Origin: Methanocorpusculum sp.
Lineage (GTDB): Archaea > Halobacteriota > Methanomicrobia > Methanomicrobiales > Methanocorpusculaceae
Direction of reading: 5' to 3'
Length of the DNA: 64,000 nucleotides
Assembly: GCA_017399555.1 (NCBI GenBank)
Contig: JAFQBW010000035.1
Coordinates: 1-64,000, forward strand
The notes below the pieces were generated by a model. That model searched no databases. It had not been told where the DNA came from and worked only from the letters and a program-made list of their open reading frames with translations. This document shows positions 3,868 through 56,729 of the stretch, in pieces. The stretch's first letter is position 1. Each line of letters starts with the position of its first letter. Both the position numbers and the translations under genes were made by a program.

Positions 3868-5274
3868 ATGACCAAATCAGGAATCACAAAACATTCCCTT
3901 CTCCTCCTCATAGCCGTCGCACTTGCGGCACTCATGGATGGTCTTGACGGTTCTATCGTCAATATTGCCCTTCCGGTGATTGCCGCCGAGTTCGGGGCAG
4001 ATACCGGTTCGGTTTCCTGGACCGTGATTGTCTATCTCCTGATGGTTGCCGGAACGATTCTGATTTTCGGAAACATTGCCGGACGCGGACATGTGAAAAA
4101 GACGCTGATTATCGGATTTACTATCTTTACGCTGGCTTCTGCTATCTGCGGTTTTTCGACGTCGCTTGCGATGTTAATCATCGCTCGTCTGATTCAGGGA
4201 CTGGGCGCTGCTATGATTATCGCCTGTGCCCCGATTATCTGCGTCAAGTTCATGCCGTCAAAGATTCTTGGGCTTTCCTTTGGTGTTCTGACTGCCGCAA
4301 CATCCGTCGGCTTTGCTGTAGGGCCTGCTATCGGCGGATTTCTTACGCACTATCTGTCCTGGCACTGGATTTTCTTTATCAACATCCCGATAGGAATCTT
4401 TGCGGTCCTCTACTGCTTACGGGTTATCCCGAAAGAAACATCCGGCACTCCATCCCGCTTTGACTGGATTGGCGCAGGTCTTCTCTTCGCGGCCATGGCC
4501 TCCGGAGTCTATGTCTTAGAGCGGCTGCCGCATTTCGGCTTTTTCCATCCGCAGATTATCGGGTTTGGCATCTTCTTTGCGGCAACACTGATTGCCCTCT
4601 GCATCTATGAAATAAAAACTCCGACACCGCTTATTAACATCCGTGTCTTTACCCGCTTTAGGGTAAATGCAGTCATCATATCATTCTTCATCATCCAGAT
4701 TGTCTACTGCGGTCTGCTGTATCTTCTGCCGTTCTATCTGACAAACACGATGCGGGTGGATTCTCTGACCAGCGGATTTTATCTGCTGATTCCGCCGCTG
4801 GTAACAGCTATTGTCAGTGTACCTATCAGCCGCTGGTCGGATAAGACCGGCAGACGCTGGTTTATGACAGCATCCTGTGTATTCCTGGTACTCATCAGTG
4901 TTGTCTTTGCCTTCATCAAACCGGAGTGGGGAGTGATTCCGCTTCTTGCCTCCCTTCTGATGATGGGACTTTCTATCGGATTTGTCAGCGGGCCGGGTTC
5001 CGGCAGAATTGTTGAGGTCATGCCGGATGGGGAACAGGAACTTGGTTCTACTCTCATGATGACCTGCGTGTACTGCGGAGGCGTTGTCGGAACTGCCCTG
5101 TATGCCGCGGTGTTTACCCTGCTTACGGCAGAAGGAGGCCAGATTCTCTCCTTCACAGACCTGCCGACAGAGCTGTTCCTTTCCGGATTCCATCTGACCA
5201 TGGCCGCAGGTATTGTTATATCCGTAATTTCGGTTCTCCTGTCAGCGGTCGTTCCGGACAGGAAATCCGCATAA
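3868..5274 (+). CDS. MFS multidrug efflux transporter, DHA2 (14-TM) family
   Basis: A 468-residue major facilitator of the EmrB/QacA drug:H+ antiporter type. The first helix carries the DHA2 signature LDGSIVNIALP, a motif-A-like loop follows, and GPAIGGFLTHYLSWHWIFFI is the antiporter motif C with its usual W-WIF continuation. About fourteen hydrophobic segments are visible. I placed the start at ATG 3868 (MTKSG). A TTG 18 bp upstream is in frame but has no clear ribosome site. It likely exports toxic compounds, and the substrate cannot be read from sequence. It stands alone, with a T-run directly after the stop. Confidence 0.87.
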   Translation: MTKSGITKHSLLLLIAVALAALMDGLDGSIVNIALPVIAAEFGADTGSVSWTVIVYLLMVAGTILIFGNIAGRGHVKKTLIIGFTIFTLASAICGFSTSLAMLIIARLIQGLGAAMIIACAPIICVKFMPSKILGLSFGVLTAATSVGFAVGPAIGGFLTHYLSWHWIFFINIPIGIFAVLYCLRVIPKETSGTPSRFDWIGAGLLFAAMASGVYVLERLPHFGFFHPQIIGFGIFFAATLIALCIYEIKTPTPLINIRVFTRFRVNAVIISFFIIQIVYCGLLYLLPFYLTNTMRVDSLTSGFYLLIPPLVTAIVSVPISRWSDKTGRRWFMTASCVFLVLISVVFAFIKPEWGVIPLLASLLMMGLSIGFVSGPGSGRIVEVMPDGEQELGSTLMMTCVYCGGVVGTALYAAVFTLLTAEGGQILSFTDLPTELFLSGFHLTMAAGIVISVISVLLSAVVPDRKSA

Positions 5275-8957: not shown

Positions 8958-9255
8958 GCCTTAGCCCTTTTTCCTTCCTCTCTCTGCATTCTTACTACCT
9001 CACAAAACAAATATAGATACATCTATGCTAAACGCCCGTATGCCCGCGACGCCTCAAGGGCATGCGGCTAAAGCCTTAGCCCTTTTTTCCTCCTCTCTCT
9101 GCATTCTTAATACCTCACAAAACAAATATAGATACATCTATGCCAAACACCCGTATGCCCGCGACGCCTCAAGGGCATGCGGCTAAAGCCTTAGCCCTTT
9201 TTTCCCTCTTCTCTCTGCATTCTTAATACCTCACAAAACAAATATAGATACATCT
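8958..9255 (+). repeat. Tandem promoter/start-codon duplication carrying two copies of the structured E element
   Basis: Three near-identical copies of the helicase promoter occur at a spacing of 115-116 bp. Each contains a pyrimidine-rich tract, the TATA-containing CAAATATAGATACATCTATG, and an ATG (9025, 9140, and the real start at 9256). Between copies 1/2 and 2/3 sit E elements with cores at 9035-9069 and 9150-9184. Each E has ATGCCC/GGGCAT and, alternatively, AAGGGC/GCCCTT stems. A degenerate E remnant precedes copy 1 (8936-8966). The duplicated ATGs run into E sequence and do not extend the helicase. Confidence 0.9.
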
Positions 9256-11720: not shown

Positions 11721-11751
11721 ATACGTCTAATAGTCTCATCATCCTATTTAG

Positions 11752-11895
11752 AAGATATTCCCACCGCGAGCCGCTCCGCGCTGAAGTCGCGGCTCCGCAC
11801 CCCTTACTTTCTGAAAATGCTTTTTTGAACTTTGTTTTTGAAATGGGGTGCGGGGCGGCGACTCCGGCGCGGAGCCGCCCGCGGTGGAATATCTT
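11752..11895. repeat. Palindromic MITE-like element with nested hairpins
   Basis: Two arms of about 51 bp (11752-11803 and 11845-11895) are imperfect inverted repeats around a 41-bp AT-rich loop. Both outer ends read (A)AGATATTC..CACCGCG inward. Each arm has its own inner hairpin: AGCCGC...GCGGCT in the left arm and GGCGGC...GCCGCC in the right arm, read in the same sense. The arms therefore differ while the pairing is kept. No ORF is inside. Confidence 0.85.
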
Positions 11896-12066
11896 AATTC
11901 CAAGAGAAGGAGATATGACTTACTTTGGAAATAGATGATAGGGAATACCCTCTATCTTTAATTCTTCCAAAATCAATTTTAAAGTATATATGACTCGGAT
12001 GGAACTGATGCAGATAAAAGTTCCCCCATCCCCATATTGAAATAGCAACCAAACCAATAACACAGT
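11896..12066. other. Leader region of the aldehyde dehydrogenase gene
   Basis: A TATA-like TTTTAAAGTATATATG (11978-11993) precedes the ATG by about 75 bp. Just right of the palindrome, GAGAAGGAGATATG opens a seven-codon mini-ORF ending in TGA. Nothing else is recognisable. Confidence 0.4.
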
Positions 12067-13428
12067 ATGATGCTTGATGTCTGCAATCCTGCAACCGGAG
12101 AACACCTTTCTTCCGTTGAGGTTTTCTCCGCCAATGATATTTCTGCCGCGGCAGAACGTGCCGCAGAGGCCGCGAAATCCTGGGAACACACAGCGCCCTC
12201 GGTTCGTGCGGTAAAACTTGTCAATGCGGCATCCCTTATCCGCGAACGCCAGGATGCGCTGTCTGCTCTTCTGACCAGAGAACAGGGAAAACCGCTTACC
12301 GAAGCCAGAAGCGAGATTCAGGGTGCAGCCCATGTTTTTGAATATTATGCCTCCGTCTGCGGCAGTATCAGAGGAGATGCGCAGAACCTGCCAAACTATG
12401 GATATCTGAATGTTGTCAGAAAGCCGGTTGGTATCTGTGCGGCCATTATCCCCTGGAATATGCCGGCAATTATCTTTGCCTGGAAAGCAGGAGCGGCTCT
12501 TGCCTGCGGAAATCCGGTTCTGGCAAAGCCTTCTGCAACTGCTCCGCTTACTGTGACCGCGATTGCCCATGCTCTGCATGAAGCTGGAATCCCAAAGGAC
12601 ATTCTGCAGATTGTAACTGGAAACGGGGATGAAACCGGCCGCGCCTTGGTGGAAGAGCCGCTTGTCCGGCATGTTTCGTTTACCGGCTCAACCGCGGCAG
12701 GCCGCGAGGTCGGAGCTTCTGCCGGCAGAAATCTGAAACGGGTTCATCTCGAACTTGGTGGAAATGATGCCTTTATCGTCACCAAATCCGCGGATGTAAA
12801 ACGTGCCGCCACCGCGGCTGTCCGTCACCGCTTCTATAACTGCGGACAGGTGTGTACGTCTGCAAAACGCATCCTGGTACACGAATCCCTGGAAGCAGAG
12901 TTCGTCTCTGCCGCAAAGGAACGGATTGAACAGCTCACCGTCGGCGACGGCATGCTTGGCAATAAGATGGGGCCGCTGAACAATGAAAACCAGCTTAGGG
13001 CTGTTTCTGATGCGGTTTTCAAAATCCTGAACAAGGAGGAAGGAACACTGGTTACCGGCGGAGAACGCATTGAAGGAAAAGGATACTTCTACCGCCCAAC
13101 GCTCCTCTGCGATGTAGCACCCGAAGCGGTGTCGGAAGAAATCTTCGGCCCGGTGATGTCTGTGATTCCATTCCGCACAGACGATGAAGCACTGGAAATC
13201 GCCAACAGCACCGAGTACGGTCTTGGCTCTTCTGTCTGGACTGAAAGCCTTGCTGCGGCACACAAATATGCAGACGAACTCAAAGCGGGGGTTGTGTGGG
13301 TCAATAAACACCTCATCTTACCGCCTGAGATGCCGTTCGGCGGTGTTGGAAACTCCGGATTCGGACGGGAAAATGGTATGGACTTTGTGTACGAATACAC
13401 CGAAGCAAAGAGTATTCTGTTTGGATAA
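12067..13428 (+). CDS. NAD(P)-dependent aldehyde dehydrogenase
   Basis: A 453-residue ALDH-superfamily enzyme. The cofactor segment is PWNMPAIIFAWKAGAALACGN, the catalytic base is in LELGGND (Glu229), the nucleophile in GQVCTSAKR (Cys263), and EEIFGPV follows. It resembles succinate-semialdehyde and lactaldehyde dehydrogenases, but the substrate cannot be assigned. It stands alone. A structured repeat and a second copy of its last 42 codons follow, differing almost only at silent sites, so the present 3' end may be a replacement. A second in-frame ATG directly follows the first. Confidence 0.92.
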   Translation: MMLDVCNPATGEHLSSVEVFSANDISAAAERAAEAAKSWEHTAPSVRAVKLVNAASLIRERQDALSALLTREQGKPLTEARSEIQGAAHVFEYYASVCGSIRGDAQNLPNYGYLNVVRKPVGICAAIIPWNMPAIIFAWKAGAALACGNPVLAKPSATAPLTVTAIAHALHEAGIPKDILQIVTGNGDETGRALVEEPLVRHVSFTGSTAAGREVGASAGRNLKRVHLELGGNDAFIVTKSADVKRAATAAVRHRFYNCGQVCTSAKRILVHESLEAEFVSAAKERIEQLTVGDGMLGNKMGPLNNENQLRAVSDAVFKILNKEEGTLVTGGERIEGKGYFYRPTLLCDVAPEAVSEEIFGPVMSVIPFRTDDEALEIANSTEYGLGSSVWTESLAAAHKYADELKAGVVWVNKHLILPPEMPFGGVGNSGFGRENGMDFVYEYTEAKSILFG

Positions 13429-13446
13429 AGAGAATACCCCACACTT

Positions 13447-13500
13447 TTGGGCTACTGCTCTGAGAGCAGTATGCCCAAATAGGCGTCGCGGGCATACGGG
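13447..13500 (-). repeat. Structured E element between duplicated aldehyde dehydrogenase gene ends
   Basis: Read on the minus strand it starts CCCGTATGCCCGCGACGCCT and folds as ATGCCC/GGGCAT or, alternatively, TTTGGGC/GCCCAAA. The second form encloses an inner hairpin ACTGCTC/GAGCAGT. It lies between two copies of the preceding gene's 3' end that are 203 bp apart. Confidence 0.85.
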
Positions 13501-13502
13501 CG

Positions 13503-13631
13503 GTGAATAAGAATCTGATTCTTCCTCCAGAGATGCCGTTTGGCGGGGTTGGAAACTCCGGATTCGGCAGAGAGAACGGCATGGACTTTGTGTACGAGTA
13601 CACGGAAGCAAAGAGCATCCTGTTTGGATAA
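13503..13631 (+). pseudogene. Detached duplicate of the aldehyde dehydrogenase C-terminus
   Basis: These 42 codons plus stop match the last 42 codons of the aldehyde dehydrogenase with one amino-acid change (VNKH to VNKN) but about 18 further silent codon differences. The copy has no promoter or N-terminal part. The shared stretch continues past the stop (AAAGAGAATAC). It is either the original gene end, displaced by an incoming E-linked segment, or a fragment imported from a relative. Confidence 0.85.
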
Positions 13632-13723
13632 AGAGAATACCTGCCTCTTTGGACAACTCTCCTCCTTTTTTCCTTCTATACAAACCTTCTTTCCCCTATC
13701 CTTAATACAGAATGCGACAAACA

Positions 13724-46664: not shown

Positions 46665-46893
46665 CAGCCAATGAGATAACCCAATATTGACCACCCGTAT
46701 GCCCGTGACGCCTGGATGGGCATGATGCGGATAAATCCGCAGCAGCCCAACAACTCAGCCAATGAGATAACCCAATATTGACCACCCGTATGCCCGTGAC
46801 GCCTGGATGGGCATGATGCGGATAAATCCGCAGCAGCCCAATAACTCAGCCAATGAGATAACCCTATATTCCTCAACAGCGAATATAGAATAC
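46665..46893 (+). repeat. Tandem 91-bp repeats with two E elements upstream of ilvE
   Basis: CAGCCAATGAGATAACCC occurs at 46665, 46756 and 46847. Between the copies lie E elements (cores 46694-46749 and 46785-46840) identical except near the right end. They fold as ATGCCC/GGGCAT or, alternatively, TGGGC/GCCCA enclosing TGCGGAT-AA-ATCCGCA. The third copy continues as the real ilvE promoter, with TATA-like CCCTATATT. Confidence 0.9.
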
Positions 46894-56480: not shown

Positions 56481-56660
56481 ATATTTTAATGTGGGGTTTT
56501 CGCGGTTGAGTGGGTTCAATGAGTTCGCAGTTTTGAGAGTGGAAAAGGGATGGATTTTTGTTTGTCAGAGAATGGAGATACTGCAGCGCATGGATTTGCT
56601 GTGAGGTGAGTGAGGAATAAAATCTCGGTTTTCCAGCAACATCAAAAAACCTTAACACTG

Positions 56661-56710
56661 AGGGCTAAGGCGCAAAGAGCCGCACGCCCTCGAGGTATCG
56701 CGGGCGGGTG
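56661..56710 (-). repeat. Solitary structured E element
   Basis: On the minus strand it reads CACCCGCCCGCGATACCT and then CGAGGGCGTGCGGCT, matching the E element at 9.1 kb except that the TATG of the core is lost. The first stem becomes CGCCC/GGGCG and the second GAGGGC/GCCCTC, so pairing is kept although bases differ. It lies just downstream of the symporter stop, without a duplicated flank. Confidence 0.75.
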
Positions 56711-56729
56711 AAAAATAGGTGAGAGAAAG

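Follow-up and report, generated by a model that had tools for sequence, protein, structure and literature searches.

The closest precedent for a duplicated gene end whose copies differ silently is the e14 prophage in icd of Escherichia coli, where 165 bp of the gene end are duplicated with 12 exchanges and 2 conservative replacements (PMC11148124). For long, variable direct repeats, the closest precedent is provided by IS1549 and IS1634 (IS1634 family), whose repeats measure 8-514 bp; according to a review of the IS4 family, no mechanism for such repeats had been proposed (PMC2266710). REP/BIME, MITE and similar elements are short, dispersed, hairpin-forming and non-coding, and integron attC sites, often located after a stop codon, are folded sites with conserved shape and variable sequence. 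In homing-type elements such as mobile introns, the element inserts with co-conversion of its flanks.

The window analysed here, a stretch of 64,000 nucleotides, contains an aldehyde dehydrogenase (ALDH) gene whose end occurs twice around a short element, hereafter E. As with e14, the gene end is duplicated, the differences are mostly silent and the upstream gene is intact. However, e14 is a prophage that encodes its integrase and occupies one site, whereas E is a non-coding element of ~70 bp found at dozens of sites, with repeats that vary in length. Long variable direct repeats are shared with IS1549/IS1634, but those elements are 1.5-2 kb long, encode a transposase and possess terminal inverted repeats, whereas E has no gene, its alignment shows no apparent terminal inverted repeat, and its repeats are one-sided. 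E-free sites with one repeat copy are as expected of a transposon that makes target-site duplications; the lack of symmetry is not. E shares all the features named above with REP/BIME, MITE and similar elements, but differs in that its stems covary instead of being conserved in sequence, its flanks form long direct repeats and the genus lacks a Y1 transposase. It likewise resembles attC sites in fold, variable sequence and position, but has neither complementary end boxes nor gene cassettes, and the recombinase found in these genomes is not an integron integrase. Like homing-type elements, E together with a short flank can be common to the same site across species (the KENC gene), but it has direct repeats, and neither an endonuclease nor evidence of splicing was found. 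E behaves like a mixture of e14 and an IS1634-type element, although it lacks the integrase gene and the single site of the former, and we rate it as a short non-autonomous repeat with an unusual and unexplained insertion signature.

Two ends of the ALDH gene

The genome containing the window (G000; 2.02 Mb, 67 contigs) clusters with ruminant-gut Methanocorpusculum. All genomes used were metagenome assemblies, three of the six carrying E were <80% complete, and gene calls around E were simple open frames. The ALDH gene (12067-13428, + strand) is a complete open frame of 453 amino acids with full-length orthologues in the genus; it is intact, and its nearest complete orthologues are also 453 amino acids long. 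An earlier note had reported that the last 42 codons occur twice, 203 bp apart. Alignment confirmed this and showed that the 10 nt 3' of the stop codon (AGAGAATACC) are duplicated as well, giving a repeat of ~139 bp. Copy A, consisting of the final 42 codons, the stop codon and these 10 nt, spans 13300-13438 on the + strand (coding part, 13300-13428), and copy B, a partial second gene end with the same 10 nt beyond its stop codon, spans 13503-13641 on the + strand (coding part, 13503-13631). E is located between them (13445-13510, + strand), with its hairpin at 13449-13476 and its conserved tail at 13481-13502; it matched the tail pattern and scored 60.3 bits with a covariance model built from 47 copies (E-value 1.2e-13, E-values of this model being rough).

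A protein search detected the ALDH end at copy B with an E-value of 1e-23. The gene and copy B were the sole matches within G000, and another ALDH copy in this genome was therefore dropped as a source. Relatives without E at ALDH (G015, G013, G012 and G007) have one gene end each, as the earlier note had anticipated for strains with an empty site. In G014, an E of the same hairpin subtype is located 3' of ALDH and is followed by an apparent gene-end remnant of ~7 codons. In the relatives checked, pyrG did not adjoin ALDH, and the idea of an ALDH remnant upstream of pyrG was discarded, as none was seen. Upstream of ALDH, the window also contains a GC-rich element (11740-11900) whose ends resemble inverted repeats (GATATTCCCACCGCG...CGCGGTGGAATATC); part of this element is found again at other positions in G000, and similar sequence is present in relatives.

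Silent differences between the copies

Over the 43 codons from V-N-K to the stop, copies A and B of ALDH had 24 identical codons, 18 silent differences and a single replacement (CAC to AAT, H to N), matching the count previously made by eye. If a remnant drifts freely and the gene itself changes only silently, 63% of the changes are expected to be replacements; in ALDH alone, 1 replacement was found among 18 changed codons (P = 6e-7). We then pooled 27 gene-end pairs of the E family, which are not fully independent because a few orthologous loci are included, and counted 207 identical codons, 56 silent differences and 17 replacements, corresponding to a replacement share of 23% (P = 9e-12; P = 4e-7 without ALDH). 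Some silent differences require two steps, such as AGA to CGC, TTA to CTT and CTG-TTA to TTA-CTG. The silent bias, together with these two-step changes, indicates that both copies carry a coding history. A dead copy drifting in place was ruled out by the codon counts of both ALDH and the pooled pairs, which bears out the earlier argument that a non-functional fragment would not keep only silent changes. The same bias supports the view that the copies diverged in two working genes and were then joined.

E is a structured, dispersed repeat

E is a dispersed element of ~60-75 bp in which the fold, a P1/P2 hairpin plus a conserved tail, is maintained while the sequence is free to change. Strong covariation was seen in its stems P1, P2 and P3: 98.8% of cells were paired, and double changes were observed in 72 cells, compared with 13 in shuffles and ≤13 in slid controls. 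The tail (AGGCGTCGCGGGCATACGGG) had 20 matches in G000 at ≤3 mismatches and 0 in the reversed-pattern control; the E between the ALDH copies, already recognised in the earlier note, is real and is one of these 20. The covariance model detected 30 matches in G000 and 16-31 per genome in six ruminant-gut Methanocorpusculum genomes. Among 150 genomes of the order, many copies were found only in those six, and two others had a single weak match. In a collection covering 84,980 species, the exact E core was restricted to gut Methanocorpusculum and one contig filed under Lachnospiraceae. This 3.3-kb contig (L260) contains two exact cores and is probably misbinned Methanocorpusculum. Viral carriage of E was ruled out, as the core was absent from viral contigs. 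No Rfam match was obtained at E, either in the window at the gathering threshold or, with the threshold relaxed, in seven E loci, which ruled out a known RNA family. Among the titles and abstracts listed by literature searches, we recognised no earlier description of E repeats in Methanocorpusculum.

E occurs both after genes and in non-coding DNA, in both orientations, and no overall orientation bias relative to genes was found. Besides the ALDH copy, the window contains two − strand copies at 9025-9086 and 9140-9201 (covariance model), two − strand copies at 46684-46752 and 46775-46843 (tail pattern and covariance model), and a diverged + strand copy at 56658-56718 (48.6 bits). Longer variants have extra hairpins inserted at a few recurring places; they were observed at L050, L065, L105, L108, L110 and L114. 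Their insert (TCGCAAG...CTTGCTCATG...CTCGAG...CTCTCG) appears to be a structured repeat in its own right, lying within E in one or the other orientation.

One-sided duplication of flanks

The flank on the hairpin side of E recurs directly after the tail in 48 of 78 copies, compared with a chance level of 4.5% obtained by swapping flanks between E copies. These direct repeats are about 19-140 bp long, the longest at a gene end being that of ALDH. Several loci contain tandem arrays (flank-E-flank-E-flank), including two inside the window. The window arrays, at 9025-9201 (~115-bp step) and 46684-46843 (91-bp step), consist of E and duplicated non-coding flank; another flank or hairpin copy, which has diverged, lies at the edge. 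E-free orthologues with a single gene end were found for ALDH, fen1, the L056 gene and tbp. The last three insertions are apparently recent: at the L056 gene, copies A and B are identical over ~27 nt and five relatives lack E; at tbp, the E array is present in G000 only; and at fen1, E is present in G015 and absent from G000, G007, G013 and G012.

When a gene on the hairpin side ended ≤40 nt from E, its end was duplicated in 20 of 25 cases, compared with 2 of 18 for convergent genes ending at the tail (P = 9e-6). In several of these convergent cases, the tail directly adjoins the stop codon, and any repeat there is very short. E-free sites for the non-duplicated copies, whose left sides often could not be compared, show the tail joined at the stop of the convergent gene, with a 5-nt repeat (TTTAG) at L086; a deletion at the tail junction was tentatively set aside. 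The one-sidedness of the duplication is the chief unexplained feature of E and would not be expected from a simple, symmetric target-site duplication. E was also observed repeatedly at the 3' ends of a protein multigene family ending ...IETWAD... (L057, L065, L069, L070 and G000 paralogues), where gene ends may pass among paralogues too.

Origin of the two ALDH ends

We compared both copies with G015, the closest relative, whose ALDH is 99% identical at the amino acid level and which has no E at this gene. Copy B had 9 differences in the first 30 nt and 2 in the 99 that follow (Fisher P = 3e-5); the former count could be inflated, as E may extend ~12 nt beyond the tail. Copy A had 1 difference in the first 36 nt and 13 in the other 93 (P = 0.11). 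The split points were picked after seeing the data, which makes both P values optimistic. On this comparison, copy B appears to be a mosaic in which codons 1-9 are foreign-looking and the remainder is native, that is, G015-like, and copy A hints at the reverse mosaic, which is not significant alone. Codons 5-9 of copy B differ silently from copy A even when the ~12-nt tail ambiguity is allowed for. The apparent breakpoints of the two copies coincide at codons 10-12, and the start of copy B is nearest to G007 and one more distant relative, with 4 differences in 33 nt.

A foreign tract extending from codon ~12 of copy A through E to codon ~9 of copy B would account for the mosaic. The proposal that the element had carried in the gene end of a relative fits in part: recombination is consistent with the mosaic of copy B and with another locus at which E moved between species. 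However, the locus is not simply a resident copy B plus a carried copy A, as the start of B looks foreign and the remainder native. A donor closely matching one copy had also been anticipated; among the genomes compared, no donor was a close match to either copy, and none matched both the end of copy A and the start of copy B.

Signs of exchange at E loci

At the KENC gene, E was 98% identical between G013 and G015, whose gene bodies were 77-80% identical, whereas in the sister pair G000/G015 the bodies were 95-96% and E was 81% identical. At L050/L109, the end types LASI and LASF were found in opposite copies between the sisters G000 and G015, and at L112/L151, copies A and B were altered together. 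G000 has a scar at the KAHKELGRG gene where E was lost, and several E loci are located at abrupt changes of between-genome identity. These observations suggest that related strains recombine at E loci and thereby swap E and a portion of the adjoining gene end. Stretches of G007 contig C14 were 98-100% identical to G000 or G015 (L052/L085, L058/L091 and L069/L070), species that are usually far more different; this may reflect recent transfer or misbinning.

From these sequence comparisons, we infer an initial insertion of E with a long duplication, followed by recombination with the corresponding loci in related strains, and we assign this account as a whole a probability of roughly 0.55. E would have moved, or would still move, and its insertion would leave a direct repeat of ~19-140 bp that covers the end of the preceding gene, so that the upstream gene stays whole. 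Later, E loci would recombine with their homologues, and with the homologous gene ends, in related strains and species, either by a double exchange or by a single crossover of an excised circle containing E plus one repeat; the latter would automatically yield the coinciding breakpoints. At ALDH, the tract acquired from a relative would comprise copy A from about codon 12 to its end, E, and copy B up to codon ~9, and the remainder of copy B would be the resident gene end. The differences would be only silent because both copies descend from working genes.

It is possible, if rather doubtful, that no foreign donor was involved and that exchange between the two direct repeats within a lineage keeps moving copy B sequence into the gene, with array growth and loss, excision and re-entry, and gene conversion exposing both copies repeatedly to selection. 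Such exchange would fit the tandem arrays at several loci, the swapped end types at L050/L109, the joint change at L112/L151 and an excision scar in L215. However, the first codons of ALDH copy B are nearer to G007 and distant relatives than to copy A or G015, and the E of the KENC gene is common to two species despite differing gene bodies; both observations favour insertion followed by exchange between strains. More speculatively, E might mark the end of a small mobile unit of a new kind, which would arrive as a gene 3' end plus hairpin. The unit would enter a gene end by homology from the hairpin side with its tail joined at a variable point, the donor end would replace the end of the gene while the resident end stays, and gene ends would in this way pass from species to species with no integrase in the element.

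Search for a mobilising enzyme

No mobilising enzyme for E was identified in searches for Y1, reverse transcriptase and tyrosine recombinase enzymes. Y1 transposase was detected in 0 of 25 genomes, with control genomes positive, and is absent from the genus, which ruled out an IS200/IS605 or REP/RAYT origin. Reverse transcriptase was found in G000, G007 and G013, not in the incomplete G012, G014 and G015, and also in three E-free genomes; in these assemblies its presence did not track that of E. A family of lone tyrosine recombinases was present in all six E genomes and in four E-free genomes, but none was found next to E. This family scored 20 bits with the integron-integrase model, far under the cut-off of 265, and E showed no attC R boxes (end complementarity 4.20 versus 4.19 for shuffled sequences; GTTRRRY in 2 of 56), so that an integron attC identity was rejected. 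The lone tyrosine recombinases at L322-L334 diverge rapidly and end near HWHMTRKWFISRF...KKLSI; some are beside trpF or a tRNA gene, and they have no evident cargo. One example is in G012 (L324, 2109-3041).

These results bear on an e14/icd-like model, in which gene ends are the targets of a site-specific integrase and are restored by the incoming element, E being what is left of a larger one. The outcome, an intact gene and a partial copy with silent differences, is the same as for e14 (PMC11148124), and the lone tyrosine recombinases occur in 6/6 E genomes. We nevertheless consider this model improbable, given the many unrelated target genes and non-coding flanks, the varying repeat length, the absence of an integrase gene beside E and the four E-free genomes that also carry the recombinase family. 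The likeness to integrases that restore a gene's 3' end, drawn in the earlier note, therefore holds as an analogy only: no integrase was found at the ALDH locus, and the arrangement is repeated at numerous genes unrelated to one another, as well as in non-coding sequence, which makes it characteristic of the E family rather than of one gene-end-specific integration.

Remaining alternatives and implications

A target-site duplication whose unselected remnant then drifted slowly in place would agree with the recent copies at the L056 gene and tbp, which are near-identical beside E-free relatives, but the codon counts given above for the family and for ALDH, together with the one-sided duplication, make it very unlikely. 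An assembly chimera of co-occurring strains is just as unlikely: strain mixing could join alleles in metagenome assemblies, but six genomes that were binned separately show the arrangement at many loci, among them the orthologous L050/L109, L112/L151 and L064/L113. Least credible is an intron-like E, with copy A through E removed from some transcripts and both copies translated and selected; deleting copy A plus E restores the frame exactly and both copies look selected, but frame restoration follows from any direct duplication, E also occurs in non-coding DNA in both orientations, and known intron families were unmatched.

If insertion and exchange between strains explain these loci, the fossil gene ends beside E would record alleles exchanged between closely related archaeal species, and E loci would serve as natural recorders of fine-scale recombination. 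A fold-conserved mobile repeat with one-sided duplications of ~19-140 bp would also inform how long variable direct repeats arise. As a caution, duplicate gene ends with only silent differences do not necessarily imply an integrase.

A detached, decayed ALDH 3' end was also observed at G006:C5:9578-9748 (L044, about 4590-4750); this genome lacks E, and its intact ALDH gene lies far away. Silent differences were again found, in the last third of this fossil.
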